From Clostridium sp. AM30-24 (GTDB lineage Bacteria; Bacillota; Clostridia; Lachnospirales; Lachnospiraceae): a DNA stretch of 64,000 nt. Each line of letters starts with the position of its first letter. Positions within the stretch are counted from its first letter, which is position 1. The notes below the pieces were generated by a model, which was given only the letters and a program-made list of their open reading frames with translations, ran no database searches and was not told where the DNA came from. Location: contig NZ_QUJB01000009.1 of the NCBI RefSeq assembly GCF_003480435.1, forward strand, positions 1,438 to 65,437, in the 5' to 3' direction. Below are positions 676-33,224 of the stretch, piece by piece. The position numbers were made by a program, and so were the translations under genes.

Positions 676-724
676 ATTATCGCTTGCTGAACTGCGGAGT
701 GCGACGAGCTGCTTTGAGACCGTA
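676..724 (-). repeat. Distal att copy, duplicated rpsI tail
   Basis: Read on the minus strand, this encodes [15 protein letters not shown] and a TAA stop. It matches the true rpsI end at 33176-33224 except for two positions (Thr for Ala, and a synonymous Arg codon). It is the recombination product at the end of the element carrying the recombinases. Confidence 0.93.
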
Positions 725-786
725 TTCACCTATCCTTGATCCAAAAAGTCCAGGATTCATGCGGTTTTTCGGGATTTCCTCTCTCA

Positions 787-807
787 GTAAACCCATAGGT
801 AAACCCA
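787..807 (+). repeat. GTAAACCCA arm-type repeats, left end
   Basis: Two copies of GTAAACCCA start at 787 and 799, 12 bp apart, between the att copy and the first recombinase gene. The same 9-mer occurs three times at the other end of the element (32991, 33031, 33042). Matching short repeats at both ends are typical arm-binding sites of tyrosine integrases. Confidence 0.65.
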
Positions 808-833
808 CGAAATCGCGAAATTTTTGGTGCATT

Positions 834-2045
834 TTAACGCAGCCCGAATGCAGCATTCACAACGCTGCTTAATTCCTCAGGTTTATTATACTTGACTTTC
901 GCATAGATGTCCATAGTCGTTTTGCTGTTCTCATGGCCTGCCAGATACTGCACCGTCTTAGGATCAACACCTTTGTAAATCAGATTGGTGATGTAGGTGT
1001 GCCGCAGCATATGCGGAGTCACCTTGAAGTCCATCGTATACACCAGCTTGGGATTGTTCGGCTGATGCTCACCAAGCCTTGGCTTTATTCTATGCTTGAT
1101 GGACTGTCCATTTACATAGGTGTAATAACAGCGTTCTGCGGTAGAACGGACTGTTATGTACTTCCAGACCCTCACAAACTGTGTTTCCGTCAAAACAGTT
1201 CCCTTCGAATTCGAGATCACATATTCCGATTCTGATTTTTCCCTTTCTTCTTTGAGACAGGCTACCAGGCATTTGGGAATCGGAACATCTCGTTTCGCTG
1301 CTGGTGTCTTCAAGAGTGTATTGACTACCGGCTCACCGCCTTCCACATGCCATGCACGCCTTACGGAAATGTACGGCGTTTTTTCATCCAGGAATACACA
1401 GTCCCATTGAAGTCCAAGAATCTCTTCTCTACGCAGTCCTGCGTACAAGCCGATCATCACGAAGACATACGGTGGAAGCTCACGAATGCTATCCAGCAAA
1501 ATAGCAGTCTGTTCATCCGTCAAAGCCTCGCGCCGTTTCGCAGGCTTTCCGCCTCTTGCGCAAATTGTTTTGGACGGATTCTCTTTGATCACCTTGCTCT
1601 CTTCTGCCGAATTAAAAATGTTCTTAATCAGCATATTGAGCTGGCCATACATTCCGGAAGAACCTTTTGATAGTGGAACCATCAGCAGCCTCAGGTCATC
1701 TGTGGTCACCTCGTCCATATACATCTGTCCAATCGGACCCACGATGTATCTTTTCACCATCCGCTCGTATCCCTCCAACGTATTGGTTCTTACCGTTCCA
1801 GACCGCATCAGCAGCCATTTTTCACAGTACTCTTCCACGGTCGGATTCTCTCTGTGGAAAACCACTTCCGCGATTTTCTTCTGGGCATCTTCCACCCGAT
1901 CATATAATTCTTCGCGTGTCAGCCCATAAATCGCCACTCTCTTTCCGTCTGCATCTGTAATCCGGGTGCGGTAATACTGTACCCCTTTCATCATCACTGT
2001 TCCGTATTCCGGAAGTTCAGCAGGACGCTTTTTTCCTTTAGCCAT
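834..2045 (-). CDS. Tyrosine recombinase (integrase) 1
   Basis: Site-specific recombinase expected to integrate and excise the element at rpsI. The order is an N-terminal arm-binding part, a SAM-like core-binding domain (about 65-150, TVEEYCEKW), then the catalytic domain with the first Arg in AGLRREEILGL, the HMLRH box, and LAGHENSKTTMDIYAKV with the catalytic Tyr. The length of 403 residues is normal for Tn916/ICE-type integrases. The ATG at 2045 is chosen because GGAGGAG precedes it; an upstream in-frame start has no ribosome site. It ends 110 bp from the distal att copy. It is clearly paralogous to the next recombinase, and which one acts at rpsI cannot be told from sequence. Confidence 0.95.
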   Translation of the reverse strand: MAKGKKRPAELPEYGTVMMKGVQYYRTRITDADGKRVAIYGLTREELYDRVEDAQKKIAEVVFHRENPTVEEYCEKWLLMRSGTVRTNTLEGYERMVKRYIVGPIGQMYMDEVTTDDLRLLMVPLSKGSSGMYGQLNMLIKNIFNSAEESKVIKENPSKTICARGGKPAKRREALTDEQTAILLDSIRELPPYVFVMIGLYAGLRREEILGLQWDCVFLDEKTPYISVRRAWHVEGGEPVVNTLLKTPAAKRDVPIPKCLVACLKEEREKSESEYVISNSKGTVLTETQFVRVWKYITVRSTAERCYYTYVNGQSIKHRIKPRLGEHQPNNPKLVYTMDFKVTPHMLRHTYITNLIYKGVDPKTVQYLAGHENSKTTMDIYAKVKYNKPEELSSVVNAAFGLR

Positions 2046-2143
2046 GTGTTCTCCTCCTCGTCTATCTTCATACATTGCGTGTTGTCACTTTTATTATCAT
2101 GGCGTACAGCACTTCCTTCAAGGATGTCGAATGTATGTAAAAA

Positions 2144-2173
2144 GGGCAGGGATTTTTGTGACCATCCCTGCCC
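2144..2173 (-). terminator. Terminator of recombinase 2
   Basis: A perfect 10-bp stem (gggcagggat paired with atccctgccc) is followed on the minus strand by a T-run. It lies between the two recombinase genes and separates their transcripts. Confidence 0.8.
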
Positions 2174-2194
2174 TAAGTTGTTTCTTATTTACTC

Positions 2195-3403
2195 TTAATC
2201 CCACGATGCAAAAGCATCTTCCAACACTCCTGCGAGCTGCTCTGGGCGATTGTATTTCACCTTGGCGTAAATATCCATGGTGATCTTGCTGCTTTCATGA
2301 CCGGCAAGATACTGAACCGTCTTCGGATCAACCGAAGCATGAATCAGATTCGTAATATAGGTGTGCCGCAGCTGATGCGGAGTCACCTCAAAGTCCAGAC
2401 TGTAAACCACATTTCCATTGTGTGCTGCCTTTTGCCCCAGAACCGGCTTCACCGTATGCTTTACCCTCTTGCCATCCTCATAGCGATAATAGCAGCGTTC
2501 CTTGGTGGTACGGGTTACGATATACTGCCATAATCTCTTGAATTGCGTATAGGACAACGGGTCTCCATCCCGGTTTGCAACCACATAATCCGATGTCGAT
2601 GTATTCTTCGCCTCTTTCAGACATTCCAGAAGATTGTCCGGCAGAGGGACATTCCGATGCGCTTCCTTTGTTTTCAGCTCTGTCAGAATCACCGGACGAT
2701 TATGCTCCGTATGCCAGGCTCTCCGAACGGTAAGGTACGGAGCCTCGCAATCAAGATACACCGAATCCCATTGAAGTCCGAGGATTTCTTCTCTCCGCAA
2801 TCCTGCGTACAGCCCCAGCATTACAAACACATACGGCGGCAAGCCGTAAATGGCATCCAGCAGCTTATCCACCTGCTCATCCGTAAGCGGGAGGCGTTCC
2901 TTCTGGGGAATTCCTCCCACATTCATCTTCAGATAGATGGTCGGATTCTCATCAATGATCTTGCTCTCCATTGCTGCCGTAAAAATACACTTATATATAA
3001 CGCTCACCGATTTGTACACGGATGCCGACTTTTTTGATGCCGCCAGCAGTGCCAGTCGAATGTCATCTGCTGTTACATCTCCCATATGCATATCGCCCAA
3101 TGGCTTAATGATGTAGTTCTTCACTTTCGATGTATAGTCAATCAGCGTTGTCATCCTGATCTGTGCCGACTGCATCAGCAACCATTTCTCGCAATACTCC
3201 TCCACTGTAGGTGTACTGCGGCGATACGTCTTGTTCTCAATCTGCTGGATCGCTTCCTGTTCCTTCTGGTACAGTTCCTCTCTCGTTCTTGCATATAAGG
3301 AAACCCGCCGCCCCTGCTGATCTGTTACACGGGTTCGATAATACTGCGTTCCCTTCATACTCACCGTACCATAATCGGGAAGCATCATTCTTCTTGCCGC
3401 CAT
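2195..3403 (-). CDS. Tyrosine recombinase (integrase) 2
   Basis: Second recombinase of 402 residues, collinear with the first and very similar throughout, for example TVEEYCEKWLLMQS and AGLRREEILGLQWDSV. The catalytic elements are complete: Arg in AGLRREE, HQLRH, and LAGHESSKITMDIYAKV with the nucleophile Tyr. It starts at ATG 3403 behind a GGAGGTAATG-type site. Two intact paralogs in tandem suggest either a duplication or capture of the integrase of a second element that uses the same site. Its own terminator lies just downstream. The excisionase-like gene lies just upstream on the same strand. Confidence 0.95.
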   Translation of the reverse strand: MAARRMMLPDYGTVSMKGTQYYRTRVTDQQGRRVSLYARTREELYQKEQEAIQQIENKTYRRSTPTVEEYCEKWLLMQSAQIRMTTLIDYTSKVKNYIIKPLGDMHMGDVTADDIRLALLAASKKSASVYKSVSVIYKCIFTAAMESKIIDENPTIYLKMNVGGIPQKERLPLTDEQVDKLLDAIYGLPPYVFVMLGLYAGLRREEILGLQWDSVYLDCEAPYLTVRRAWHTEHNRPVILTELKTKEAHRNVPLPDNLLECLKEAKNTSTSDYVVANRDGDPLSYTQFKRLWQYIVTRTTKERCYYRYEDGKRVKHTVKPVLGQKAAHNGNVVYSLDFEVTPHQLRHTYITNLIHASVDPKTVQYLAGHESSKITMDIYAKVKYNRPEQLAGVLEDAFASWD

Positions 3404-3474: not shown

Positions 3475-3705
3475 TCACCGCCGAAAGCTTCGAGGTTTGC
3501 GATATGTCGCAGCACGTTCCATCGGTTTTGCACGGTGTGTACATTTTGCAATGTACTCCTGAATCCCCACTTCCGTGAAATAAACGCAGCCGTTTTCCAC
3601 ATACTGAACATAGGAGATCAAACCGTCTGTTCTTGCAGCATCCAGTGTTTTTACGCTGATTCCCAGTATACTGGCTGCTTCCTTCCTTGTAATCAGTTTA
3701 TCCAT
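3475..3705 (-). CDS. Excisionase-like helix-turn-helix protein
   Basis: Small basic protein of 76 residues with a MerR/HTH_17-type fold near its N-terminus (LITRKEAASILGISVKTLDAARTDGLISY), as in excisionases and other recombination directionality factors. The ATG at 3705 lies in ATGGATAA, overlapping the stop of the MazF-type gene, so the two are probably translationally coupled. A longer in-frame extension only shadows the upstream gene. Position beside the recombinases supports a role in choosing excision over integration. It could instead be a transcriptional regulator. Confidence 0.75.
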   Translation of the reverse strand: MDKLITRKEAASILGISVKTLDAARTDGLISYVQYVENGCVYFTEVGIQEYIAKCTHRAKPMERAATYRKPRSFRR

Positions 3706-4120
3706 CGCCTTCTTCGCCTTCCTTTCGGCATTTGCCCTGTCTTTTTTTCTCTGCCTGTTCCGGAATGTAATAACCAAGCTGAATCCTTACAGCTTCGTCA
3801 ATCCCACGCATCTGCCCCTTACTTACCCGCCCAAGATAGCGAATCACGCATATCTTGTCGCAGGTGTCGAGCTGTTCTGCCAATACCATAGACGGTTTTG
3901 CCAGTCCCTTTGCTTTACGGAGAAAGAAATGCGTTGGCTGCTTTCGCTTCTTCTCAATTTTCGATGTCAGCGGAGCAATCGTGATTGTCGGCGCATAATA
4001 ATTACCGACATCATTCTGAAGAACCACAACAGGACGAACACCGCCCTGCTTTGATCCAACCGGAACACCGAGATTGGCGAGATATAAATCACCTCGCCGA
4101 TAAACCCAGTTTTCTTTCAT
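3698..4120 (-). CDS. MazF/PemK-family endoribonuclease toxin
   Basis: Protein of 140 residues with PemK/MazF landmarks: RRGDLYLANLG at the start, the GGVRPVVVLQNDVGN core, PTITIAPLTS, and a late VLAEQLDTCDK segment. Family members are mRNA interferases that cut single-stranded RNA and stall growth. The start at 4120 follows a GGAGA site; an upstream in-frame Met lacks one. No recognisable antitoxin precedes it. The overlapping downstream gene is the excisionase-like HTH protein, which is the only candidate partner. Such toxins often stabilise integrative elements. The lysine-rich tail is unusual and hydrophilic. Confidence 0.82.
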   Translation of the reverse strand: MKENWVYRRGDLYLANLGVPVGSKQGGVRPVVVLQNDVGNYYAPTITIAPLTSKIEKKRKQPTHFFLRKAKGLAKPSMVLAEQLDTCDKICVIRYLGRVSKGQMRGIDEAVRIQLGYYIPEQAEKKRQGKCRKEGEEGDG

Positions 4121-4812
4121 TTGCTGTTGTCTCCAATCTCCATACACTGATATGGATAAAGCCTGCCAGGTATCATACTGATACAGCACCCAGCAGTGCT
4201 TTCTGAAAATATGGTTTCTCTGTACTTTTTCTTATCACCCCAGAGATGTAGGATTTCTCACAGGCGGCAGTGTGCTTCACTGCTCCATTGGAATTTAACC
4301 ATCCCGCCTTCCTTATGGCCGGACCGCGAATTACGGAAGTATCATTGTCCCTGTCTGGCTTTAGCACCGCCGCCGGTTGCAATCCGGCATTTGCTTCTGC
4401 GAAACCGCTATCGCCCCGATGGGCTTCATGGCGTGCAGTCGAAGGCTCGACCAAACAGGAATGTACCTGAAGAATGAGTATTCAGTTTTCAAGGGACATC
4501 CGGACTTTCGTCCTTACAAAGTAAGTTTAACAAGAATCCTCCGGTTTCGCGTTGGCCTCGTAGGCGCACTTTGGTTGTCCTTGCAGGACTACATACGGTT
4601 TGTTTTGATTTTTTTCAGTGTCCTATGCAGTCGGATTGGGGCAAAAAAATACCTCGTTGGTTTCCCAACGAGGCATCGAAGACGATTCTATTCTGTTTTC
4701 TGTAAACTGGTACCCGTTTATCTCCTGGTGACCATTTGAGTCACGGCCAATGTATCTCTGAAGTCCTTTCTGTTCTATACATAGTTAGTATCGTCTAACC
4801 ATCTGGTGGAAG
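4121..4812. other. Junction region between element backbone and cargo, no clear gene
   Basis: Open frames of 60-120 codons occur on both strands but overlap each other and lack ribosome sites. The stretch 4190-4480 is mixed in composition and may be a conserved non-coding segment or gene remains. A terminator hairpin lies at 4652-4673. GC content rises visibly downstream of about 4800, marking the start of the cargo block. Confidence 0.5.
4643..4673 (-). terminator. Minus-strand terminator
   Basis: A 9-bp perfect stem (cctcgttgg with ccaacgagg) around a tttc loop is followed on the minus strand by seven T. It would stop transcripts leaving the ferritin gene before the toxin gene. Confidence 0.8.
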
Positions 4813-4846
4813 AAAAGGCAGGCCACCTGTATGCAGTCTGCCTTTT
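4813..4846 (-). terminator. Hairpin downstream of ferritin
   Basis: An inverted repeat (aaaaggcag with ctgcctttt) is followed on the minus strand by TTCTTCC. It is the first candidate terminator after the ferritin stop. Confidence 0.55.
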
Positions 4847-4878
4847 GCCTGATGCGAAAGCCCGCAGATGCGCGGGGC

Positions 4879-5388
4879 TTACAGCACCAGCGAGGGTGCG
4901 GTGTAGACCCGTGCCTTCAGCTCGCTATTGAGCATATACAGCCCCTTGCTGTCACCGCCGAACAGCTCCATCTTGGTGATGAGGTCGGCGACGTTCTTCT
5001 CCTCCTCGCCCTGTTCCTTGATGAACCAGTCCAGCATCTGCATGGCGCGGAAGTCTTTTGCCTCGTATGCGGCGGCGTAGATGGCATCGATGCTGGCGGT
5101 GACCAGCTTCTCGTGCTCCAGTGCCTTTTTCAACGGGGTCATGTGGTCGCCTCGTTCCCACTCCGGCTTTGCGATAGCCTCAAAGGTAACGCCCTCGCCG
5201 TTATTCTGCAAATACTGATAAAACAGCATGGCGTGATCCCGTTCCTCCTGCGCCTGTACCCGGTACCAGTTCTCAAAGCCGTCCAGTCCGACGGCGGCGT
5301 AGTAGTTGGCAAAGTCCAGATACAGATAGGCGGAGTAGAACTCCTTATTGATCTGCTCGTTGAGCAGCTTAGATACGTTAGCGTTCAT
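4879..5388 (-). CDS. ftnA: Ferritin
   Basis: Non-haem ferritin of 169 residues that oxidises Fe(II) and stores iron, removing fuel for Fenton chemistry. The four-helix bundle carries ferroxidase residues of the FtnA type: Glu in NEQINKEFYSAYLYLDF, ExxDH in QAQEERDHAMLFY, and the later KEQGEEEKN helix. Length and order match bacterial FtnA. The start at 5388 has a GGAGGAGAAG site, and the long upstream extension in the same frame has no family similarity. The ATG overlaps the stop of a truncated Fur-like frame, so an iron or peroxide regulator once lay directly upstream. Confidence 0.93.
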   Translation of the reverse strand: MNANVSKLLNEQINKEFYSAYLYLDFANYYAAVGLDGFENWYRVQAQEERDHAMLFYQYLQNNGEGVTFEAIAKPEWERGDHMTPLKKALEHEKLVTASIDAIYAAAYEAKDFRAMQMLDWFIKEQGEEEKNVADLITKMELFGGDSKGLYMLNSELKARVYTAPSLVL

Positions 5389-5564
5389 GATACTTCTCCT
5401 CCATAAGATTGTCTTTTTCCTGCTCCCGGCAGGCGGGGCAGATATACCGGATCCAGAGCGATGCTGGGATGCTCCCTTTTCATCTCCAGGAACACCTGCT
5501 CCGCCGTGGGATGCTGCTGCAGCTCCGTTACGTCGGCCAATATCTCCTCTGCGTATTTTGGCAT
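5385..5564 (-). pseudogene. Truncated Fur/PerR-family regulator fragment
   Basis: The 59-codon frame starts at ATG 5564 after a GGAGGGTTGG site. It reads MPKYAEEILADVTELQQHPTAEQV... then SIALDPVY, which follows the Fur/PerR winged-helix pattern (HPTAEEIY..., then a SLATVYRNL-like recognition helix). The similarity is lost after about residue 42, and the dimerisation and metal-binding half (about 90 residues) is missing. The remainder could hardly act as a repressor. A neighbouring frame in the same interval encodes a short CPAC zinc-ribbon-like motif, suggesting a deletion or frameshift. The position before ferritin is natural for a PerR/Fur gene. Confidence 0.65.
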
Positions 5565-5667
5565 ACCGCCAACCCTCCAAATGCAAGAATGAGTCTTATT
5601 ATACCTATATTTTTTCTCTGTCAACAACCACAAAAGGCTTGTGCCCCAAAAGCTGCCCCGAATTACC

Positions 5668-5696
5668 TTGACAGTTTTAACTGTATCTGTTACAAT
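5668..5696 (+). promoter_or_regulatory. Near-consensus promoter of the rhodanese-Rrf2-thioredoxin operon
   Basis: TTGACA (5668-5673), a 17-bp spacer and TACAAT (5691-5696) precede the lipoprotein rhodanese gene. The -35 box is inside the first copy of a palindrome (see next entry), so a repressor bound there would block RNA polymerase. Confidence 0.85.
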
Positions 5697-5711
5697 CACA
5701 GTATAAACTGT
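5671..5711 (+). promoter_or_regulatory. Twin palindromic operators, probable Rrf2 sites
   Basis: ACAGTTTTAACTGT (5671-5684) and ACAGTATAAACTGT (5698-5711) share ACAGT-N4-ACTGT and are both followed by ATC. Their centres are 27 bp apart and flank the -10 box. A further atacagt half-site follows near 5723. The Rrf2 gene in the same operon is the likely binder, giving autoregulation; that link is inference. Confidence 0.7.
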
Positions 5712-5746
5712 ATCAGCATCGAATACAGTTGCATTGGAGGTTGATT

Positions 5747-6169
5747 ATGCGTCAGATATTACTTTTTGCGGCACTTGCCACTTCGCTTGCGCTTCTGAGC
5801 GGGTGCACGCTGTCCAAGACAAAAGCGGACACGGCGGAGGACATGACAGGCAAGGCGGCGTATCATAAGATCAGCGCCGAGGAAGCCTATGAGATGATGG
5901 CCTCGCAGGAGGTCATGGTGGTGGATGTCCGCACCCATGAGGAATACGACGGCGGACACATCGAGAACGCCGTCCTTGTCCCCAACGAGAGCATCGGCAG
6001 CGAAATGCCCGAGGCGCTGCCCGACAAGGAAGCCACGCTGCTGGTCTACTGTCGCAGCGGCCGCCGCAGCAAGGATGCCGCACAAAAGCTGCTGGCGCTG
6101 GGGTATCAGAGCGTCTACGACTTCGGCGGCGTCATCGACTGGCCCTACGAGCTTGTGAAGGAGGGATGA
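5747..6169 (+). CDS. Rhodanese-domain lipoprotein
   Basis: Exported rhodanese of 140 residues. A hydrophobic signal ends in a lipobox (LALLSGC), so the mature protein should be lipid-anchored outside the membrane. The rhodanese domain has VVDVRTHEEYDGGHIENAVLVP and the active-site loop VYCRSGRRS with the persulfide-carrying Cys. It would move sulfane sulfur at the cell surface. The start at 5747 follows GGAGG; an in-frame ATG six codons earlier overlaps that site. It is first in an operon with an Rrf2 regulator, whose ATG overlaps its stop, and a thioredoxin. Confidence 0.92.
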   Translation: MRQILLFAALATSLALLSGCTLSKTKADTAEDMTGKAAYHKISAEEAYEMMASQEVMVVDVRTHEEYDGGHIENAVLVPNESIGSEMPEALPDKEATLLVYCRSGRRSKDAAQKLLALGYQSVYDFGGVIDWPYELVKEG

Positions 6170-6588
6170 TTGTGGACAGTTCTTTTAATCTGGCCGTCCA
6201 TGCGCTGGTCTGCCTGAGCCACGGTGGTCGCTCCCTCAGCAGCGAAGCGCTGGCGGAGAACATCTGCACCAATCCCACCCGCGTCCGCCGGGTGCTGGCG
6301 GGGCTGAAAAAGGCGGGAATGGTGGAGACCCGGGAGGGCTTGGACGGCGGCTACCGCCTGACGGCAGACCCCGCAACCCTTTCGCTCCGGCAGGTGGCGG
6401 AGGCGGTGAATACCCGCTTTGTGGACTGCGCGTGGCACAGCGGCGATATTGACCGGGACTGCGTCATCTGCTCCGGCATGGCGGGCGTGATGGATGCGCT
6501 GTACTGGAGCATGAATGAGGAATGCGCCGCCTATCTCTCGCACATTACGATCACGGATATTGAAACACAGCTTTTCACACAGAAATAG
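6166..6588 (+). CDS. Rrf2-family transcriptional regulator 1
   Basis: Regulator of 140 residues with a winged helix (FNLAVHALVCLSHGG..., then LDGGYRLTADP in the wing). Three cysteines clustered at VDCAWHSGDIDRDCVIC are positioned like the Fe-S ligands of IscR/NsrR-type members, so it may sense O2, NO or Fe-S status. The gene overlaps the rhodanese stop (ATGA) and precedes a thioredoxin by 12 bp. The twin ACAGT-N4-ACTGT palindromes upstream of the operon are its likely targets. The actual signal is unknown. Confidence 0.9.
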   Translation: MIVDSSFNLAVHALVCLSHGGRSLSSEALAENICTNPTRVRRVLAGLKKAGMVETREGLDGGYRLTADPATLSLRQVAEAVNTRFVDCAWHSGDIDRDCVICSGMAGVMDALYWSMNEECAAYLSHITITDIETQLFTQK

Positions 6589-6600
6589 GAGGATTTTACG

Positions 6601-6921
6601 ATGCTTACCATTACGACCAACAGCTTTGAAAATGACGTCCTGCACGCGGACAAGCCCGTGCTGGTGGATTTCTGGGCCCAGTGGTGCCCCTACTGCCGCC
6701 GTATTGCCCCGGCCTTCGACAAGGTGGGGGAGCAGTACGCCGACACGCTCATCGCTGGCAAGATCAACTACGACGAGGAGCCGCAGCTCATCGAGCGTTT
6801 CGGCATCGACACCATCCCCACGCTGATGCTCTTTAAGAGCGGCGAGGTGATCGGCTCTGTGGTAGCGCCCGGCTCCAAAGCCGCCATTGAGACATTTATC
6901 CGGGAAACGCTGGCGCAGTGA
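6601..6921 (+). CDS. trxA: Thioredoxin (CPYC active site)
   Basis: Thioredoxin of 106 residues with VLVDFWAQWCPYCRRIAPAF, the cis-Pro loop IPTLMLFKSG, and normal family length. The CPYC motif is more glutaredoxin-like than the classical CGPC and shifts the redox potential in related proteins. It is the last gene of the rhodanese-Rrf2 operon and may reduce the rhodanese or its sulfur acceptors. It closely resembles the thioredoxin in the nrd operon (shared INYDEEPQL/INIDEEPRL and APGSKA segments), which suggests duplication within the island. Confidence 0.95.
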   Translation: MLTITTNSFENDVLHADKPVLVDFWAQWCPYCRRIAPAFDKVGEQYADTLIAGKINYDEEPQLIERFGIDTIPTLMLFKSGEVIGSVVAPGSKAAIETFIRETLAQ

Positions 6922-7036
6922 GGGCGTGGCTATGGAGTAGATTTATGATACGCTTCCATGTAGCACACTTCGTGTCTTCTTAGAAACCGAGGGCAACGGT
7001 CAAAGCCATCCGTTTGCACCATGGTCAAAATGCAAA

Positions 7037-7071
7037 AAGCGCAGCCGCAGATATTCTCTGCGGCTGCGCTT
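7037..7071 (+). terminator. Strong hairpin after the rhodanese operon
   Basis: A 14-bp perfect stem (agcgcagccgcag with ctgcggctgcgct) lies between convergent transcripts: the thioredoxin gene on the plus strand and the flavodiiron gene on the minus strand. A-rich and T-containing flanks allow it to work in both directions. Confidence 0.75.
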
Positions 7072-7185
7072 CGATCCATTTTCAAAGCTTCGGCATCACT
7101 CAACGCCATATTGTTGTCTAAATAAATCAGCGACGATGTTTTGCTTTTGAGGCATCGGGCGGCCGGACGAAGCCAGACTCGCCGC

Positions 7186-8367
7186 CTACTCCGCGCAGAG
7201 CTCCGCCACCAGAGCGTCCATCTGCGCTTCGCTGGTTTGGTTCAGTGCGCCGCGCAGCGATACCTCTGTTTCACACAGTCGGAGTTCCTTCATCTTTTCC
7301 AACTCGGCGCGCATCAGCCGCGCGGCAGCAGGGGCCCATGAGCCGTTTTCCATGAGGCCGACCCGGCGGTTTCGGAATCCCTTTGTCTGTAAATGATCCA
7401 AAAAGGCCTTCATGGGCGGGAACAGTCCTCCGTCATAGGTGGAGCAGGCCAACACCAGTTTCCCACAGTAGAATGCGCTGGTCACGGCATAGGAAAGGTC
7501 TGTTGCCGTCAGATCGCACATGGTGACTTGCGCACCTTTTCCCTCCAGCTTGCTCTTGAGGGCCTCCGATGCATATGCGGTATTTCCATGGATGGACGCG
7601 TGGACGATAAGGATGCCCTCCGGGTCTTCCGGTTTCCATTGTGACCAGAGATCATAGAGCCGCAGATACTCCCCCAAGTCTTCTGTGAGCATGGGGCCAT
7701 GGAGCGGGCAGATCGTTTTGATCTCCAGCGCGGAGATTTTTTTCAGCAGCGCCTTCACCTGTGCGCCATACTTTCCGACGATGTTGTAATAATACCGCCG
7801 GGCCTGCGGCGCCCAGGGGGCACGGGCAGTCCGTTCCAGTGAACCGAAGCGGCCGAAGGCATCCGCCGAGAACAGGATCTTTTCCTCCTCTTCATACGCT
7901 GCCATCACCTCCGGCCAGTGTACCATCGGCGCCAGCAGAAAGCGCAGCCGGTGCAAACCCAAGGAAAGCGTATCTCTTTCGCCAACCTCCAGCATACGGT
8001 CTTCCGACAATGCACCTGTGCCGAAGAACTGCTTGATCAAGGTAAATGTTTTCGCGTTTCCCACGATCTTCATCTCCGGGTACTTTTGTGCCAGCCGCAT
8101 GAGGCTGCCGGAATGATCCGGCTCCATGTGTGTGACCACAAGATAGTCGGGGCTGCGCCCCTCCAACACCCGCGCCACGTTGGAAAGCCATTCTTCCACC
8201 GCCCGTGCGTCCACGCTGTCCATCACGGCGATTTTCTCGTCCAGAATGACATAGGAGTTGTAGCTCACTCCCATAGGCTGGACGGGGTACTGGTTTTCAA
8301 AGAGTGCCAATGTGTTATCATCCACCCCTACATAGCGGATGGCATCTGTTACCGTTTGAATGGTCAT
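7186..8367 (-). CDS. Flavodiiron protein 1 (O2/NO reductase)
   Basis: A-type flavodiiron protein of 393 residues. The beta-lactamase-like domain carries the diiron ligands HMEPDH (His80, Glu82, Asp84, His85), His150 in APMVHWPE, Asp169 in FSADAFG, and His223 in CPLHGP. A flavodoxin domain follows (about 250-390; HASIHGNTAYASEAL). These enzymes reduce O2 to water or NO to N2O with rubredoxin electrons. I chose the ATG at 8367, with GGAG 12 bases upstream; an earlier ATG abuts that site. It is last in an operon behind two DUF2249 genes and lies opposite a Crp/Fnr gene, a context that fits NO or O2 response. Confidence 0.95.
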   Translation of the reverse strand: MTIQTVTDAIRYVGVDDNTLALFENQYPVQPMGVSYNSYVILDEKIAVMDSVDARAVEEWLSNVARVLEGRSPDYLVVTHMEPDHSGSLMRLAQKYPEMKIVGNAKTFTLIKQFFGTGALSEDRMLEVGERDTLSLGLHRLRFLLAPMVHWPEVMAAYEEEEKILFSADAFGRFGSLERTARAPWAPQARRYYYNIVGKYGAQVKALLKKISALEIKTICPLHGPMLTEDLGEYLRLYDLWSQWKPEDPEGILIVHASIHGNTAYASEALKSKLEGKGAQVTMCDLTATDLSYAVTSAFYCGKLVLACSTYDGGLFPPMKAFLDHLQTKGFRNRRVGLMENGSWAPAAARLMRAELEKMKELRLCETEVSLRGALNQTSEAQMDALVAELCAE

Positions 8368-25724: not shown

Positions 25725-25725
25725 A

Positions 25726-26490: not shown

Positions 26491-26525
26491 GGGAGCTTTC
26501 CTCCCTTTGTATTCGGTATATTCCG

Positions 26526-26554: not shown

Positions 26555-26878
26555 TTTTTTCAAAAGCTGCTACATTTTCCGTCCTCATATGTGTGCTGGC
26601 TGATATTCGGTGTCGAAGACTACGTGTGAGCCATGTTCGTATTGTCAGATTATCTACATTTGACAGAACTTCGCAGGGCATGATGAATTTGCTTGGATTC
26701 ATTATGAGTTTAGTTTACATGCAAGCCGTTCACGGGTGGTTGTCCGCCTATGAACGGCTTGTAAATTCTCAATTTTTTTCCTTACTTGACACAAGAAGAT
26801 CTCAGTCGCCGCGTTAGAGATTACATCGAAGCGGGCAAGTAGTCTCTCTATTTTGTCATTTCCAAACGCAGAGCACGA
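26555..26878. other. Gap at the cargo-backbone border
   Basis: No intact gene. A short plus-strand frame ending LTQEDLSRRVRDYIEAGK at about 26848 has no start and may be a gene remnant. A perfect 11-bp stem (26722-26732 with 26751-26761) may be a terminator. GC content falls here toward that of the element backbone. Confidence 0.4.
26722..26761. terminator. Perfect 11-bp hairpin at the cargo border
   Basis: caagccgttca pairs with tgaacggcttg around an 18-base loop. A T-rich run follows on the plus strand after a short gap. It may insulate the cargo from the XRE module. Confidence 0.45.
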
Positions 26879-27169
26879 TTAGATTTTCTTCGCAATCGTA
26901 GACAGCTCCGAAATAATGCTCAGAAGATCATTTTTGACTTCCTCTTTACTTGGCTCACTGCCCATCAGAAGATAATCCGTGCTGACATGGAGGATGCAGG
27001 ACAGTTCGATCAGCAAGTCAATGAAGCAGCTGCGCTCTCCGTTCTCCATACGGCTGACATGCTGCTTGCTTGCCAGTCCCAGGCGAACCGCCAGTTCCTC
27101 CTGCGTAATGCCACGGGAAGTGCGAACATCTTGAAGTCTCTTACCAAACTCTTTTGCGTCAAAATACAT
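26879..27169 (-). CDS. XRE-family regulator 1
   Basis: The 96-residue DNA-binding protein has a classic XRE helix-turn-helix (KRLQDVRTSRGITQEELAVRLGLASKQHVSRMENGERSCFIDLL) and a short tail. The start at 27169 follows AAGGAG; a 39-codon extension has no support. It lies 220 bp downstream of the zinc-ribbon and ImmA/IrrE genes on the same strand. A repressor/protease pair of this kind controls excision and transfer in ICEBs1 and relatives. Confidence 0.85.
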   Translation of the reverse strand: MYFDAKEFGKRLQDVRTSRGITQEELAVRLGLASKQHVSRMENGERSCFIDLLIELSCILHVSTDYLLMGSEPSKEEVKNDLLSIISELSTIAKKI

Positions 27170-27387
27170 ACGTTTCTCCTTCCGCACAGCCGGTACAGAA
27201 CCGGACCAACGGAAGGTCAAAAAAGGAGCCGCATGACGGTGAAGAAAAAAATCCTGTGCCGATAAAACAGAACATGGGTATCCCATAATTCTGTCTCATG
27301 CGGCATTCGGAAGACTTCGCCTGTCAGCGGCTCCACAGCACAGCTATGACTTATAAAATTGTGTTATTAGGGTTATTTATTGTCATC

Positions 27388-27648
27388 TCAACCATTCAAA
27401 GACGAATAGTAGAGCTGCAATCTCCGTAATCTTCTCATCTCCAAAACATTGAAGACAGTCTCTCGTCCGCAGGCCTTGCATTTGGTCTGCACATGTCCTC
27501 TGGTATCCTCAAAGACGATGATTGAATTGTGTCGGCAATAAGGGCACCTGACAGTCCTGGGCTTTTGCGAAGCAATCGCATCCTTTGCCCGGATGATTTT
27601 AATCTGCATTTCCGCAGATGGTTCCGATACTCTGATATTCCTGCTCAT
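27388..27648 (-). CDS. Zinc-ribbon protein
   Basis: Small basic protein of 86 residues with one complete zinc ribbon: CPYC near residue 37 and CKAC near 58, followed by a basic helix (VLEMRRLRRLQLYY). The ATG at 27648 has GGAGG seven bases before. It overlaps the end of the ImmA/IrrE gene by 4 bp, so the two are co-translated. No specific family is recognised; a nucleic-acid-binding role is plausible. Confidence 0.6.
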   Translation of the reverse strand: MSRNIRVSEPSAEMQIKIIRAKDAIASQKPRTVRCPYCRHNSIIVFEDTRGHVQTKCKACGRETVFNVLEMRRLRRLQLYYSSLNG

Positions 27649-28376
27649 GGCCACACCTCCAATGGATCGCGATATTCATAATCCTTTTTCCGGTTCAGAT
27701 AGCCCAGTTGTTCCAAGCGGATAGTAGCTGCCGATCTCGAAACGCCAAAGACACCACAGAAAGTATCTATCTTCACCTGGTCTTTGTCATAAAAACGCCC
27801 TCCATAACATGTCAGAGGCTTTCTGCTGTTGATGAACCACATCGCCCGATCCACTTCTGACTGGGGCATCAGGATGGCAGCTCCCAGCGAATTGGCCTGC
27901 CACTCGTTCCAATCTTCCTGCGTTCTCAGAACGCGGGAACCTTTTTTCCTCACTTCCGGTCTCTTATGGCAGGCTATCTTTCGGTCATCGGCATACAGCT
28001 GAAACAATATCTGGTGAGCGCACTCATGTGCCAGCGTAAACCTGCGTTTTCCGCAGAGTTTCCGTATATTCTCCGGTTCAATGAAGCTCTTGTCCAGAAC
28101 CACATCATTGGTTTTCAGGAAGATGCTCCTCTGACTTCCATCGACTTCAATCTGATATTCTGTATCCACATACGCAGTCAGACCATAGATGCTTCCGTCC
28201 GAGGACAGCTTTTGAAATGACACCTTCAGGTTCAGATAATCAGATGCGAACTGGTCAATGGGTGTCGGAAGCGCGAATCTCGACGGATCATCTGCTTCGC
28301 TGCCGAAAAAGGACTTTTGAAAATCTCTTATCACTGCAACAGCGATTTCTTCTATTTTTTTCTGTGAAAGGATCAT
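27645..28376 (-). CDS. ImmA/IrrE-family metallopeptidase 1
   Basis: The 243-residue protein has a zinc-peptidase motif HECAHQ (LAHECAHQILFQL) and a downstream Glu-containing helix (EWQANSLGAAILMP), the ImmA/IrrE pattern. The C-terminal part looks like a winged helix (FGVSRSAATIRLEQLGYL). Such peptidases cleave XRE-type repressors after stress and release element genes. The likely substrate is the XRE protein encoded downstream. The ATG at 28376 has AAGGAG before it and overlaps the end of the next gene. Confidence 0.88.
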   Translation of the reverse strand: MILSQKKIEEIAVAVIRDFQKSFFGSEADDPSRFALPTPIDQFASDYLNLKVSFQKLSSDGSIYGLTAYVDTEYQIEVDGSQRSIFLKTNDVVLDKSFIEPENIRKLCGKRRFTLAHECAHQILFQLYADDRKIACHKRPEVRKKGSRVLRTQEDWNEWQANSLGAAILMPQSEVDRAMWFINSRKPLTCYGGRFYDKDQVKIDTFCGVFGVSRSAATIRLEQLGYLNRKKDYEYRDPLEVWP

Positions 28377-28633
28377 AGACACTGCTCCTTTGCCTCAACG
28401 AACCATTTTTCATCTTCGTTGAACAGAAAACTCTCATGCCCACCGATCATGACCGTATAACGAATTCCGCAGCCGCCCACTTTCGTGGAAGCCGCCCGGC
28501 ACTTATGCTTCAATCGGTCGATCTCATATACCCGTCCGTCAATCCAGCGAATCAGGCGCGGACGAATATTTCCCTCTGCATCCACATCTAAATTCACAGG
28601 TACATATACTTTTCTGCATTTCTGTTCCGACAT
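28373..28633 (-). CDS. Uncharacterised 86-residue protein
   Basis: Small protein with VYVPVNLDVDAEGNIRPRLIRWIDGRVYEIDRL and a later HESFLFNEDEKWFVEAK end, suggesting a compact beta-rich fold. Proteins like this occur in Clostridial elements beside the Y-family polymerase and ImmA genes, but I know no function. It overlaps the ImmA/IrrE start and has a good site (GGAGGAGCG) at its ATG. It probably belongs to the same operon as the polymerase, 80 bp upstream. Confidence 0.65.
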   Translation of the reverse strand: MSEQKCRKVYVPVNLDVDAEGNIRPRLIRWIDGRVYEIDRLKHKCRAASTKVGGCGIRYTVMIGGHESFLFNEDEKWFVEAKEQCL

Positions 28634-28714
28634 ATTCTACGCTCCTCCTCTGTAAACCGGCGAATGTGTTGACTTCTTTTAGCAAAGAACTCACCAGATT
28701 CTGCCGGTGCTGTA

Positions 28715-29950
28715 TTAACCAATCATTCCTGTCGGCATAACCAAATCCACTTTTCGCTCTGTCGGCATCTTGCTTTTCTGAAAAAGTACCCCATTTTTAA
28801 TCGCATCTTTCCCGAATCGGAATCGAATCTGCTCAATCGCCGCGTCCAGCCGTTCCTGGCGATCCAGTGATTTCACGTCGGTGAATAGGTCGTATTGTAT
28901 CGGACAATCCTCTTCAAACAGGTTGATTGCCCGAACCGTCACTGAACGAATCGGATGCTCCCACTGATAGTTCTTTGCAAACAGAGCAAATGCGGTTTTC
29001 GCCAGATAGGTGGGGCTTTGTGTCGGAATACCAATCCGGCACTGCCACTCTTTCGTGTAAAGCTCGTTGTTGCGGATGGAAACCGCTATTCCGCCAGCTT
29101 TCTTTTTATGTGTTCGCAGCTTAGTTCCGATCTCCTGCACCAGTTCCAGCATGACACACCAGACTTCGGCGTTATTCTCCAAATCCTGCATGGTCGTTAT
29201 CCCGTGCCCAATGCTCTTTACTGGGGAGACATAATCGGAACGCATAACCGGCGAATCATCCAGTCCATTGGCATATTTCTTAATCGCCAGTCCATTCTTT
29301 CCAAGGCGGCACTTCAAGAAATCATCCGATGTTGCAGCAGGCTCTCCAATGGCATGAATCCCATAACCGGACAGAACCTTCTCGGTCGCTCTGCCGACTC
29401 CAAGCAAGTCAGAGGCGGGAAGGCACCAAATCTTCTCCCGGAACGAATCTGCATCGATGTAGGTAATCGCATCCGGCTTTTTCATATCCGACCCAAGCTT
29501 GGCAAAAATCTTGTTGAAACTCACTCCTGCGGAAATCGTAAGTCCCAATTCAAACTTAACCGTTCTGCGAATCTCATCTGCAATTTCAAATCCGGTTCCC
29601 ATGCAGCCGCTTCCGGTCACATCCAGCCAGCATTCGTCCATCCCATACGGCTCGATCTGATCGGTATAGCGACCGTATATTTCACGAGCCAGCTTTGAAA
29701 ACTTCATATATTGCTCATAGTGCGGCTCCACGATCACAAGATCCTGGCACTTCTGCTTTGCTTGCCAGATTGCCTCCCCCGTGGAAACACCAAACGCCTT
29801 TGCTGCATAGTTCTTCGCAAGTACGATACCATGCCGTTCCTCCACAGAACCGCACACTGCCACCGGCTTGTTCTTCAGTTCCGGGTTCAGCATACACTCG
29901 ACAGAGGCATAGAAATTATTCATATCACAATGAAGAATCACCCTTTGCAT
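28715..29950 (-). CDS. Y-family DNA polymerase (UmuC/DinB type)
   Basis: Translesion polymerase of 411 residues. The start HCDMNNFYASVECMLNPEL carries the first metal Asp, YGMDECWLDVT the catalytic Asp-Glu, followed by thumb and little-finger domains (SAGVSFNKIFAKLGSDMKKPDAI, LLGVGRATEKVL). Length fits bacterial UmuC-like proteins. The ATG at 29950 has GAGGAGG before it. It is transcribed divergently from XRE regulator 2, whose TTCGTG operators lie in the shared gap, so damage-induced loss of that repressor could switch it on. Confidence 0.94.
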   Translation of the reverse strand: MQRVILHCDMNNFYASVECMLNPELKNKPVAVCGSVEERHGIVLAKNYAAKAFGVSTGEAIWQAKQKCQDLVIVEPHYEQYMKFSKLAREIYGRYTDQIEPYGMDECWLDVTGSGCMGTGFEIADEIRRTVKFELGLTISAGVSFNKIFAKLGSDMKKPDAITYIDADSFREKIWCLPASDLLGVGRATEKVLSGYGIHAIGEPAATSDDFLKCRLGKNGLAIKKYANGLDDSPVMRSDYVSPVKSIGHGITTMQDLENNAEVWCVMLELVQEIGTKLRTHKKKAGGIAVSIRNNELYTKEWQCRIGIPTQSPTYLAKTAFALFAKNYQWEHPIRSVTVRAINLFEEDCPIQYDLFTDVKSLDRQERLDAAIEQIRFRFGKDAIKNGVLFQKSKMPTERKVDLVMPTGMIG

Positions 29951-29969
29951 CCCGTATTCCTCCTCTCCG

Positions 29970-30121
29970 TTCGTGAAAGCACGAACAACTTTTCACGAAC
30001 GCATTGACACACAGCATTTCTTGTGATACTATAATTACACGAATTGTATTTCGTGTTTCCATCGTCATGATAGCAAGCACAGTTTTTCGTGTCAATAGAT
30101 TTTTATGAAAAAGTGTTCGTG
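29970..30121. promoter_or_regulatory. Array of TTCGTG/CACGAA operators and XRE promoter
   Basis: TTCGTG-N4-CACGAA at 29970-29985, a half-site at 29994-29999, CACGAA-N6-TTCGTG at 30038-30055, and half-sites at 30086-30091 and 30116-30121. A promoter (TTGACA 30004-30009, 17 bp, TACTAT 30027-30032) points to XRE gene 2 and is flanked by the sites. This looks like the operator region of a phage-type divergent switch. Confidence 0.72.
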
Positions 30122-30151
30122 TTTGTTATCAAAAAAGAAAGAGGTATTCCT

Positions 30152-30568
30152 ATGGTCTTCAAAGAAAGGTTGAAAGAAAAAAGAACAGAAGCCAACTTAA
30201 CTCAGGTAGAACTTGCAGAGAAGGCCGGTGTAACCGCCCGCACAATTCAGAATTATGAGCTTGGCAGCCGCAAACCATCCAATATGGTTACGATTCAGAA
30301 GATTGCGGATGCGCTGAATACTACTACTGAGTACCTGCTGGGAAGCAGCGGCACCTATGTCGTAGAAGCTCATGAAAAAGGCGGCGCAAAAGCAGCGAAA
30401 GATATTGAAGAACTGGTCAGCGAAGTGACCGGTATGTTCGCTGGCGGCGAATTAAGCGAAGATGCCATCGAAGGAGCTTATAAAGCTCTGACTGATGCCT
30501 ACTGGATTGCCAAAGAGAACAATAAAAAATACGCCCCGAAAACGAGGCGTAAAAAATCCGATCAGTGA
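30152..30568 (+). CDS. XRE-family regulator 2
   Basis: The 138-residue repressor has an N-terminal XRE domain (RLKEKRTEANLTQVELAEKAGVTARTIQNYELGSRKPSN) and a helical C-terminal part. The ATG at 30152 follows AAAGAGG; an extension of 21 codons is unsupported. The TTCGTG repeats in the divergent gap are its likely operators, controlling itself and the Y-family polymerase. An ImmA/IrrE peptidase gene follows 45 bp downstream, giving a second repressor/anti-repressor pair in the element. Confidence 0.9.
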   Translation: MVFKERLKEKRTEANLTQVELAEKAGVTARTIQNYELGSRKPSNMVTIQKIADALNTTTEYLLGSSGTYVVEAHEKGGAKAAKDIEELVSEVTGMFAGGELSEDAIEGAYKALTDAYWIAKENNKKYAPKTRRKKSDQ

Positions 30569-31417: not shown

Positions 31418-31768
31418 TTAGCGGCATTTCCGATACGGCTTTTCCGTACACGGTGATTCCGAACACGGCTTTTTCCTCGGCATCTCATAAATCACATACT
31501 CGGCTCTACCCATCCGACCGTTGCTCTCACGCTGCTGGTTCCTTTCCAGATACCCAAGACGCTCCAGCTCCTTCAGAGCCGTAAGCACTCCAGCTACGCC
31601 ATCCGGCGTAAGCGAAGATAACCCCCGTACCGAATAGTTCCATGTGTCCGGCAAACTGAGCAGCATGGAGAGAAGTCCTTTCCCTTTCAGGCTGAGACCC
31701 TGATCCCGCAGGTGGTAATTGCACATCGTTGTGTAATTGCTGTTCTTCTCAACCCTGAATACCGGCAT
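31418..31768 (-). pseudogene. Replication-initiator-like protein, shortened
   Basis: The 116-residue product starts MPVFRVEKNSNYTTMCNYHLRD, has a winged-helix-like middle (GKGLLSMLLSL..., LSSLTPDGVAGVLTALKELERLGYL) and ends in a CSESPCTEKPYRKCR tail. Initiators of this class in Clostridial conjugative elements continue well beyond such a tail, with repeated TEKP motifs and a second DnaD-like domain. Here the frame stops early, and no continuation is clear in the next frame, so it is probably decayed. It follows the small gene at 31749-31916 with overlap. Confidence 0.6.
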
Positions 31769-31916
31769 GGTGCTCACCATCCTTTTTCGCAGGCTCCGCT
31801 TTCTTCTTCGGACATTTGCGCGGACGATCTTCGCTGTCCTCCCGGCAATGGTATTTACCAGTATCATGCATCATGCGCTCAAACGCCTGAAGGCGTCCCT
31901 CTGTAAAAAGCGTCAT
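31749..31916 (-). CDS. Small uncharacterised element protein
   Basis: The 55-residue product begins MTLFTEGRLQAFERMMHDTGK and continues with a basic Cys-containing part (CREDSED..., CPKKKAEPAKKDGE). Its ATG overlaps the stop of the antirepressor gene (ATGA), and it overlaps the start of the initiator gene, so the three form a compact operon. Similar small proteins occur in Clostridial ICEs at this position. The function is unknown. Confidence 0.5.
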   Translation of the reverse strand: MTLFTEGRLQAFERMMHDTGKYHCREDSEDRPRKCPKKKAEPAKKDGEHHAGIQG

Positions 31917-32743
31917 TCGATCACACCCCATTTCTTAAACAACTTGAAGAGATGATTCTTTCCCTTGCAGGTCACTCTCGTCTGCTGCACCAGTTTTCCG
32001 CTTCTGCCGTAGCAATCCCGGACAATAAAATAGCCCCTTGCAGATTTGTCTGCAAAAGGCATCAGCCAGCCGCTTGGACTGCGGTACAGATAGCGGTGAT
32101 CCAGTAAGAGAGCCACTGCCGTCTTCTCCGGGATTCCGATTTCCTTACAGAAATTCCGGATGCAGGTACAATCCTCGGAGTTCACAAAGGTGTCGAAGTA
32201 GTCTGCCTTGGGCTGTGCCGCATCCAGCTGTTTACGGATACCCTCAAGTTGCTCTCTCTCGGCTACAAGCTCTTGCGCCAGAGTGTAGATGGCCTCCGGA
32301 TGCTGAATCACCTGATCCAAAATGGAATCGCTCATATACACACCATGCTTGCGGATGGAAGGGAGAACTTCATCAAACACCCAGTGTTCAAATCGTTCTG
32401 CCGATGGCAGCTTGCTGTGAACGATCAGCCGGTAAACATCACCTTCTGAGATAAAGGAAATTTCAACGGCCTGCTCTCCAGCGTTTCCATACTGGTTCAC
32501 CTTCTGAACGACCCCCTCGCGTTTCGTTAGGGGGCCTCTGCAATGGCGTTTCACTGCGGCGTAGGGATTCACATACCCCAACGCTTTCGCCACATCGCTT
32601 GCACAGAAGAAGGTCTTGCCTGCCTCCTGTAACAAACGGATGGAACCAAACTCCTGGTTATCAAACACCTCCATCATCTGCCTCGACTGTCTGCCATGAC
32701 TGCCCACATCAGTGTCATGGGTCTTCTGATTGAAATCCGTCAT
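31913..32743 (-). CDS. Phage-type antirepressor (BRO-N and KilAC domains)
   Basis: The 276-residue protein has an N-terminal BRO-N domain (about 25-125: VFDNQEFGSIRLLQEAGKTFFCASDVAKALGY and SERFEHWVFDEVLPSIRKHGVY-like segments) and a C-terminal KilAC-like domain (about 150-270) ending KNHLFKLFKKWGVIE. Prophage antirepressors of this kind bind DNA or repressors and trigger induction. It is the first gene of the compact operon at the rpsI-proximal end. A minus-strand terminator sits 50 bp upstream, so it has either an attenuated leader or a promoter within that short gap. Confidence 0.85.
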   Translation of the reverse strand: MTDFNQKTHDTDVGSHGRQSRQMMEVFDNQEFGSIRLLQEAGKTFFCASDVAKALGYVNPYAAVKRHCRGPLTKREGVVQKVNQYGNAGEQAVEISFISEGDVYRLIVHSKLPSAERFEHWVFDEVLPSIRKHGVYMSDSILDQVIQHPEAIYTLAQELVAEREQLEGIRKQLDAAQPKADYFDTFVNSEDCTCIRNFCKEIGIPEKTAVALLLDHRYLYRSPSGWLMPFADKSARGYFIVRDCYGRSGKLVQQTRVTCKGKNHLFKLFKKWGVIE

Positions 32744-32794
32744 ATCTGTTACCTCCTGCTCAAATTTGTCTCGCCGGATTTCGGGCGAAAAAAA

Positions 32795-32843
32795 ATAGAG
32801 CCTCGACCCATTCTCGTTTTCAAAGAATGAGCCAAGGCTCTAT
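32795..32843 (-). terminator. Minus-strand terminator before the antirepressor
   Basis: An 18-bp stem (atagagcctcgacccattc with gaatgagccaaggctctat) is followed on the minus strand by eight T. It would stop any read-through from rpsI or act as an attenuator for the antirepressor operon. Confidence 0.85.
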
Positions 32844-32990
32844 GTAACAGGATACCTGATATTATTTTTTTGCAGAATTCGTCAGAACTCGCCAAACGAT
32901 CCTGACACTGCTTTTCATTCCATTTCGACCGGATTTTTACCGAAAATCTGTCAAGGATATGGGGCTAATTTCCCTCCAAAATAGCCTTCT

Positions 32991-33050
32991 GTAAACCCAT
33001 TTTCCCACCCATTAGGCTCAAAAATAGGCCGTAAACCCATGGTAAACCCA
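32991..33050 (+). repeat. GTAAACCCA arm-type repeats, right end
   Basis: Copies of GTAAACCCA start at 32991, 33031 and 33042, with an inverted tgggtta at 33057. They match the pair at the left end (787, 799). The mirrored placement supports their role as recombinase arm sites. Confidence 0.65.
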
Positions 33051-33122
33051 TCAAAATGGGTTAATTTGAAGTCAAATTTTCTCAAATTTCACCATCGGAA
33101 TCAGGCAATTTCAGGCATAGAA

Positions 33123-33154
33123 AAAGCCCGGAAAATAGCGTATTTCCGGGCTTT
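33123..33154 (-). terminator. Terminator downstream of rpsI
   Basis: gcccggaaa pairs with tttccgggc around a 7-base loop, followed on the minus strand by five T. It lies just inside the mobile element and therefore now ends the host rplM-rpsI transcript. Confidence 0.88.
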
Positions 33155-33175
33155 TTTAGCATTTTTAAGTTGTAG

Positions 33176-33224
33176 ATTATCTCTTGCTGAACTGCGGAGC
33201 GCGACGAGCTGCTTTGAGACCGTA
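33176..33224 (-). repeat. Proximal att copy, 3' end of rpsI
   Basis: The last 15 codons and stop of rpsI match the distal copy at 676-724 at 47 of 49 bases. The point where element DNA begins cannot be fixed within the repeat. Confidence 0.93.

Follow-up and report, generated by a model that had tools for sequence, protein, structure and literature searches.

A redox gene block, its core probably exchanged recently between genera, in the cargo slot of an apparent integrative element at the 3′ end of rpsI

The butyryl-CoA:oxygen oxidoreductase (BOOR) of Fusobacterium nucleatum, which consists of BCR and a flavodiiron protein (FDP), has been described as an energy-conserving enzyme (PMC12288474), and a preprint on gut Clostridia describes a neighborhood in which an Rrf2-family regulator (C0FN14) is associated with BOOR, with ribonucleotide reductase (RNR), thioredoxin and rubrerythrin genes nearby in F. 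prausnitzii (PMC13404960). From streptococci, integrative and conjugative elements (ICEs) are known that use a tyrosine integrase, lie in the 3′ end of rpsI and are flanked by direct repeats (PMC4701971). BOOR, its Faecalibacterium neighborhood and the streptococcal rpsI ICEs are already in print. What gut ICEs are known to carry is mostly drug resistance. Here we describe a 64-kb stretch of Clostridium sp. AM30-24 (contig NZ_QUJB01000009.1; hereafter the window), which is read, with a probability of about 0.85, as containing an integrative element at the 3′ end of rpsI whose cargo slot (4757–26878) is filled by a 22-kb redox block with a core recently exchanged between genera. An initial annotation had proposed an integrative element in rpsI with an aerotolerance island, not known to it from any described element, whose spread could alter the oxygen tolerance of a gut anaerobe in one step. 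No account of the block as mobile was found among the titles and passages of open-licence papers examined, which is not proof of absence, and the main text of PMC13404960 contains no mention of mobile, conjugat-, transposon, island or plasmid and uses "horizontal" once, for regulators of Bacteroidia. The BCR–FDP heart of the block shares the published architecture of BOOR.

The element and its integration site comprise the following features.

676..724: distal copy of the rpsI 3′ end (attachment-site repeat), 49 nt, 96%
834..2075, minus strand: tyrosine recombinase 1 (Phage_integrase domain, E 1.5e-20)
2195..3403, minus strand: tyrosine recombinase 2 (Phage_integrase domain, E 6.4e-24)
3698..4189, minus strand: PemK/MazF-like protein, element backbone (domain search)
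4285..4348, minus strand: pemK RNA motif RF02913, upstream of the PemK/MazF-like gene (RNA family match)
4757..26878: redox block (cargo), its ends placed by comparison with genome G659, where these junctions enclose a different 5.2 kb
26879..30523: element backbone (HTH, IrrE-like, DNA polymerase IV, HTH), 95% to G659 (family scans and comparison)
31418..31867, minus strand: HTH_36 protein of 149 aa (the counterpart in genome G001 has 228 aa); adjoins the junction at which G001 carries its conjugation region
31913..32743, minus strand: BRO-N/KilAC antirepressor at the right element end, 96% in G001 and in genome G385
33176..33224: proximal repeat copy, the 3′ end of the intact rpsI (repeat comparison)
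33177..33569, minus strand: rpsI, ribosomal protein S9, integration target (Ribosomal_S9, E 1.6e-50)

The direct repeats, which are the 3′ end of rpsI, agree at 47 of 49 positions (96%), are spaced 32,500 bp apart and flank 32.5 kb that hold the redox block and the two recombinases, the latter in tandem beside the distal copy and 56–57% identical to each other. The repeats at both ends, the recombinase pair at one end and a cargo exceeding 20 kb, as initially annotated, were all recovered. Site-specific recombinases with flanking att repeats, one trait of an ICE, are present in the window, and no tRNA gene was found in its 64 kb by ARAGORN. By description, the element resembles the streptococcal ICEs in being a tyrosine-recombinase element with direct repeats at the rpsI 3′ end and differs in its two tandem recombinases, its redox cargo and its lack of a conjugation homologue (PMC4701971). 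Upon integration, the rpsI-tail copy on the excised circle would recombine with the chromosome, such that the element is inserted and rpsI is rebuilt.

In the rpsI 3′ end the nearest genome is G659 (97% over 122 bp; rpsI–rplM is 87% for both G659 and genome G023), a near relative with a chromosome collinear with window positions 33117–64000 over much of their length, at 64–87% identity and with gaps. This genome carries the same element (positions 674–4756 at 96.3% and 26879–30523 at 95.4%), and between exactly those junctions its slot holds 5.2 kb of other genes (C7:3786-8977, L271) and no redox block, as judged from a genome search with 15702–34140 only and from the contig parts examined. 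Several of the slot genes have ATP-binding-type motifs by eye and might form a defense system. Past the distal rpsI tail of G659, greA follows about 1.2 kb further on. In G023, 116 bp separate the rpsI stop from the start of greA, which represents an uninterrupted rpsI–greA junction, and the greA protein is 97.6% identical to that of G659. An uninterrupted rpsI site and a near relative whose copy of the element lacks the block, both sought by the initial annotation as tests of its reading, were found. At fourfold-degenerate sites the window and G659 differ by 9–20% in element genes and by 22–65% in chromosomal genes.

The block itself contains the following features.

4879..5586, minus strand: ferritin (PF00210, E 1.2e-35), the domain covering residues 73–208 and the true start probably near 5388
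5729..6169, plus strand: rhodanese-domain protein (family scan)
6166..6588, plus strand: Rrf2-family regulator; best match HypR, below cut-off
6601..6921, plus strand: thioredoxin (family scan)
7186..8379, minus strand: flavodiiron protein 1 (HxExDH motif)
8387..9079, minus strand: DUF2249 protein (domain search)
9462..10157, plus strand: Crp/Fnr-type regulator (family scan)
10672..11601, minus strand: thioredoxin reductase (family scan)
11616..11939, minus strand: thioredoxin (family scan)
11967..13073, minus strand: NrdB, class I RNR small subunit (562 bits, cut-off 310)
13021..15564, minus strand: NrdA, class I RNR large subunit (1496 bits, cut-off 1377)
15702..16913, minus strand: flavodiiron protein 2, BOOR-type FDP subunit (HxExDH motif)
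16936..18849, minus strand: BCR, BOOR-type fusion of acyl-CoA dehydrogenase, EtfA C-terminal domain and rubredoxin (domain search)
18872..19303, minus strand: Rrf2-family regulator, core operon gene 1 (family scan)
19349..19369, minus strand: putative operator, a palindrome overlapping the -35-like box that precedes the core operon
19648..20475, minus strand: RelA/SpoT-like small alarmone synthetase, start uncertain (family scan)
20316..22010, minus strand: CoA-disulfide reductase, the match covering residues 2–441 of 564 (family scan)
22007..22327, minus strand: thioredoxin (family scan)
22356..22931, minus strand: Fer4_5-domain protein, membrane-type by eye (domain search)
22928..23131, minus strand: 4Fe-4S ferredoxin (family scan)
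23144..23389, minus strand: ferredoxin-thioredoxin reductase beta-like protein, 81 aa (PF02943, E 2.2e-6, weak)
23514..23672, minus strand: rubredoxin (family scan)
24051..24425, minus strand: desulfoferrodoxin, superoxide reductase (family scan)
24446..24988, minus strand: rubrerythrin (family scan)
25068..25799, minus strand: Crp/Fnr-type regulator (family scan)
25726..26490, minus strand: DUF134 and dinitrogenase FeMo-cofactor-type domain protein, MrpORP-like (domain search)

All cargo named initially was found (ferritin, rubrerythrin, desulfoferrodoxin, two flavodiiron proteins, CoA-disulfide reductase, class I RNR and regulators, with a weak match for the beta subunit of ferredoxin-thioredoxin reductase), and to it are added three thioredoxins, thioredoxin reductase and rubredoxin, the regulators being two of the Rrf2 and two of the Crp/Fnr type. 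That nearly all cargo handles redox or stress is correct for most genes and not for the RelA/SpoT-like synthetase, the DUF2249-type proteins and products without an assigned role, which the block also carries. The NrdA/NrdB pair expected of a class I RNR is present; NrdB aligns to solved small subunits and has the residues that we take to be its metal ligands and radical tyrosine. In 2-kb windows, G+C is mostly 51–62% in the block, falling to 48% at 22–25 kb, and 43–55% outside it. Two open reading frames (ORFs) without a family match, 4831–5406 on the plus strand and 9416–9925 on the minus strand, were rejected as genes in favor of the overlapping ferritin and Crp/Fnr genes, respectively. By eye, the residues preceding the ferritin look like the damaged remnant of a transcriptional repressor gene; a gene so annotated precedes ferritin on the Vescimonas plasmid considered below.

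At the center of the block, rrf2, BCR, FDP, nrdA, nrdB, trx and trxB form a single minus-strand run (from 18872–19303 down to 10672) with gaps of 14–27 bp, except for 137 bp before nrdA, which depends on the ORF call, and with overlapping nrdA and nrdB ORFs. This operon contains a predicted BOOR-type pair, as a Bcd–EtfA–rubredoxin fusion is encoded beside a flavodiiron protein. The order Bcd–EtfA(C-terminal)–rubredoxin and the adjoining flavodiiron protein match the F. nucleatum enzyme (PMC12288474) in domain architecture as described, rather than by protein alignment, and the activity is predicted; the pair differs in that its operon is larger, also holds Rrf2, RNR and thioredoxin genes and lies on mobile DNA. 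With the neighborhood in PMC13404960 it has in common an Rrf2 gene adjoining BOOR, with RNR, thioredoxin and rubrerythrin nearby, and to this the present analysis adds the boundaries of the block, its vehicles and its transfer.

Upstream of rrf2, the palindrome TCTTGACAAAATTTATCAAGA (19349–19369) overlaps a -35-like TTGACA, and 39 of 41 loci retain TTGAC at the corresponding position of the alignment, the 41 being the loci with a usable Rrf2 start among 82; the site was chosen by its match to a consensus from two block members, so that its palindromy score is biased upward. No second copy was found in the window with up to three mismatches allowed. The Rrf2 at 18872–19303 has a Cys-rich stretch, a candidate for cluster-ligating cysteines. 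For its BOOR-linked Rrf2 the preprint proposes induction on cluster damage (PMC13404960), and the palindrome with its -35-like overlap is consistent with an autorepressed operon induced in this way. In such a scheme the Rrf2 repressor would hold the core operon off until inactivated by oxygen, whereupon BCR–FDP would convert O2 to water with butyryl-CoA as the donor. Class I RNR, thioredoxin and thioredoxin reductase would sustain DNA synthesis once the oxygen-sensitive anaerobic RNR fails, while desulfoferrodoxin, rubrerythrin, CoA-disulfide reductase and ferritin would deal with superoxide, peroxide, thiols and iron. These RNR and scavenger roles are presumed from general knowledge of the families. 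The net outcome, which we infer, would be low-oxygen tolerance of a butyrate-producing gut anaerobe.

Copies of positions 4757–26681, whole or in pieces and at about 85–98% DNA identity, occur in G001, G385, Oscillibacter sp. MSJ-31, O. valericigenes An907 (in pieces spread over three contigs), F. longum CLA-AA-H243, F. hattorii APC922/41-1 and two metagenome-assembled genomes (MAGs). In G385, positions 10448–26681 of the block, mostly at 96–98%, lie beside the element right end and rpsI on one 885-kb contig. Among 31 Faecalibacterium-genus genomes (a genus draw around F. longum), a 7.3-kb core (11967–19303) is present at 97–98% in eight, four of them on contigs of 2.8–3.1 Mb, and the other 23, five of which have weaker matches, lack such a copy, so that the block does not occupy one fixed locus in all relatives. 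On these large contigs the copies of G451 and G428 reach 26644 with internal gaps, that of G439 lacks about 19458–24049, and that of G452 stops at 19637; their flanks are alike only piecewise (G428 and G439 over 7.2 kb at 99%, G451 and G452 over about 25 kb on one side at 97%). Homologues of relaxase, VirB4, coupling protein or integrase, some in pieces, flank the copies examined, namely six of the eight in Faecalibacterium (all but G434 and G438) and MSJ-31; for G428, G434, G438, G439, G451 and G452, genus membership is that of the draw around G063. An order-wide draw of 392 genomes, with one or two candidates per genome scored at E 1e-100, gave 28, a lower bound, and at least two with long stretches above 90% (G001, G385). 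The Vescimonas fastidiosa plasmid pMM35_02 (NZ_AP023417.1, 110147-119737) carries a compact block at 88% identity over 30% of the query, comprising ferritin, transcriptional repressor, Rrf2, Trx, TrxR, an MBL-fold protein at the place of FDP1, nitroreductase, FprA, BCR and Rrf2, with no RNR in the annotated stretch. A phage origin was rejected, since there was no near match to the block in 50,697 phage records and no BCR relative was confirmed in viral contigs. Judged from these copies, it is the block, in surroundings that include rpsI elements, ICE-like neighborhoods, chromosome and plasmid, that spreads widely, and not the rpsI element alone. The very similar copies in distant relatives, including some Faecalibacterium, make oxygen coping look transferable between gut anaerobes.

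That the exchange of the core was recent is indicated by fourfold-degenerate sites, which in nrdA, nrdB, FDP2, BCR, rrf2 and trxB differ by 1.0–9.5% between the window and G001, G385, MSJ-31, F. longum and F. hattorii, while rpsI and rplM differ by 34–89% in the same comparisons. A BCR tree of 92 rows (from a quick search under LG+G4, with SH-aLRT as the only support measure) unites the 16 carriers included in one clade (SH-aLRT 99), in which the plasmid copy branches first and the eight Faecalibacterium-genus copies form a sub-clade (97); a Faecalibacterium-labelled BCR from a MAG (L143) is placed outside it.

Several observations weigh against reading the window as an integrative element at rpsI with a recently exchanged cargo. 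The uninterrupted junction of G023 is the only one among 30 relatives' loci (L001–L030, each covering up to 1.5 kb beyond rpsI), and greA was not found beside rpsI in seven further stretches (window, G001 region, G467 C112, G659 C16, G385, G557 C45, G037 C42). In G659, about 1.2 kb separates the distal tail from greA, and occupancy was pieced together from two contigs, because its rpsI lies on another contig. The 675-bp left flank of the window is not the greA region and resembles the end of another rpsI-site element; it was rejected as proof of an empty site, since 259–530 also lies directly beside rpsI in G029, G032, G586 and G659, and suggests tandem elements at rpsI in the window and G001. 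The G001 block lies outside its 119-kb rpsI element, ends at 20813 and lacks 19661–20732. PLSDB types pMM35_02 as non-mobilizable, and no repeats, mobility genes or shared junction motif are seen at the block ends. Fourfold divergence rises to 16–20% for FDP1 (against G385 and two Faecalibacterium) and 13–29% for dfx, rbr and coadr (against MSJ-31 and two Faecalibacterium), the BCR of MAG G066 differs by 22%, and the five Vescimonas genes compared differ by 21–46%. Because parts diverge more than the core, the block is regarded as a mosaic with a recent shared core.

The rpsI element belongs to a family. G001, G029 and G032 have similar recombinase pairs next to an additional rpsI tail, and An907 has one recombinase (53% identity) beside an rpsI tail. 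Two places matching the rpsI 3′ end were found in 26 of 299 family genomes, with at most two candidates scored per genome and second places inspected in G001, G029, G032, G586 and G659; that of G608, a match of 102 bp at the edge of a contig, may be a split rpsI. The 119-kb element of G001 (3.6 Mb, one contig) encodes VirB4-like, NlpC/P60, topoisomerase (TopB), coupling-protein (T4CP) and ParB proteins, and that of G029 (44 kb) shares many genes with it, conjugation-type genes being found in both. In the window, the conjugation module typical of an ICE (relaxase, coupling protein, type IV secretion system ATPase) was not seen, queries for VirB4, T4CP, relaxase, TopB and NlpC/P60 giving no match of at least 80 aa at E 1e-15, and no homologue was found of the one MobA-type relaxase queried; an own oriT or relaxase, working with a helper, would mark an integrative and mobilizable element. 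The 109-kb region of G001 that holds the conjugation genes is replaced by about 220 bp beside the shortened HTH_36 gene. The window element is most readily explained as having arisen by deletion from a larger ICE, of an rpsI-specific family whose tyrosine recombinases are paired; given this and the lack of conjugation homologues it is probably not self-transmissible, and its transfer would now need a helper. The integrative element initially proposed is supported, with the corrections that it lacks the conjugation homologues tested and that the block spreads in several surroundings.

A further step would be to regard the element as a dead remnant that gained a mobile block by recombination and no longer excises. 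This is possible, though we lean against it. Besides the missing conjugation homologues and the HTH_36 gene shortened at the deletion junction, it is favored by the two mismatches between the repeats and by G385, in which the best recombinase has only 25% identity and no distal rpsI tail occurs within the 157 kb searched to the left of its rpsI. However, both window recombinases are open, full-length and 97–98% identical to the G659 pair, and between these genomes the element genes are less diverged than the chromosomal genes. The block might alternatively serve mainly in nitrosative stress, or in redox balance and energy conservation with butyryl-CoA as the donor, rather than in oxygen survival, since it encodes two proteins of the flavodiiron family, which is able to reduce nitric oxide (NO), and BOOR is described as energy-conserving; we consider this unlikely, as the F. 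nucleatum BCR–FDP complex is reported to have shown no NO reductase activity (PMC12288474), and superoxide reductase, rubrerythrin and class I RNR are in the same block. Very improbable is an old Oscillospirales cluster, inherited vertically, lost by most lineages and in element DNA by accident, since, even though FDP–BCR pairs outside the block, many of them accompanied by Rrf2, occur widely in Clostridia at about 68–83% DNA identity (best 80 loci), only strong silent-site selection in every host could reconcile it with the low core divergence, and the carriers form one clade, L143 apart, are patchy in Faecalibacterium (8/31) and in several cases lie amid conjugation-type genes or on a plasmid.

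With an element at rpsI and a recently exchanged core as the preferred reading, a broader proposal can be made, which we hold to be slightly more likely than not: oxygen tolerance in strict gut anaerobes would be partly horizontally shared, one block with a BOOR-type enzyme, class I RNR and superoxide, peroxide and thiol defenses circulating within Oscillospirales on plasmids, rpsI elements and several ICE families and having recently entered part of Faecalibacterium, where it would change the niche in one step. The cargo would then amount to a near-complete microaerobic kit, patchy in a leading butyrate-producing genus, and its presence would predict which Faecalibacterium strains survive oxygen better. 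The regulator neighborhood that PMC13404960 associates with cirrhosis would be tied to horizontal transfer, and natural pairs of carriers and non-carriers are available for testing what limits strict anaerobes.

Two minor observations concern the surroundings. At a distance of about 180 bp from the block's right end, G001 has a 24-residue stretch (C1:2976066-2976137) with 79% identity to the C-terminal end of the window's recombinase 1, which may be a remnant. On the host side of the window near rplM, genes for D-glutamate cyclase, carboxyltransferase A/B domain and LamB/YcsF proteins (36213–39826) form an oxoprolinase-type cluster.

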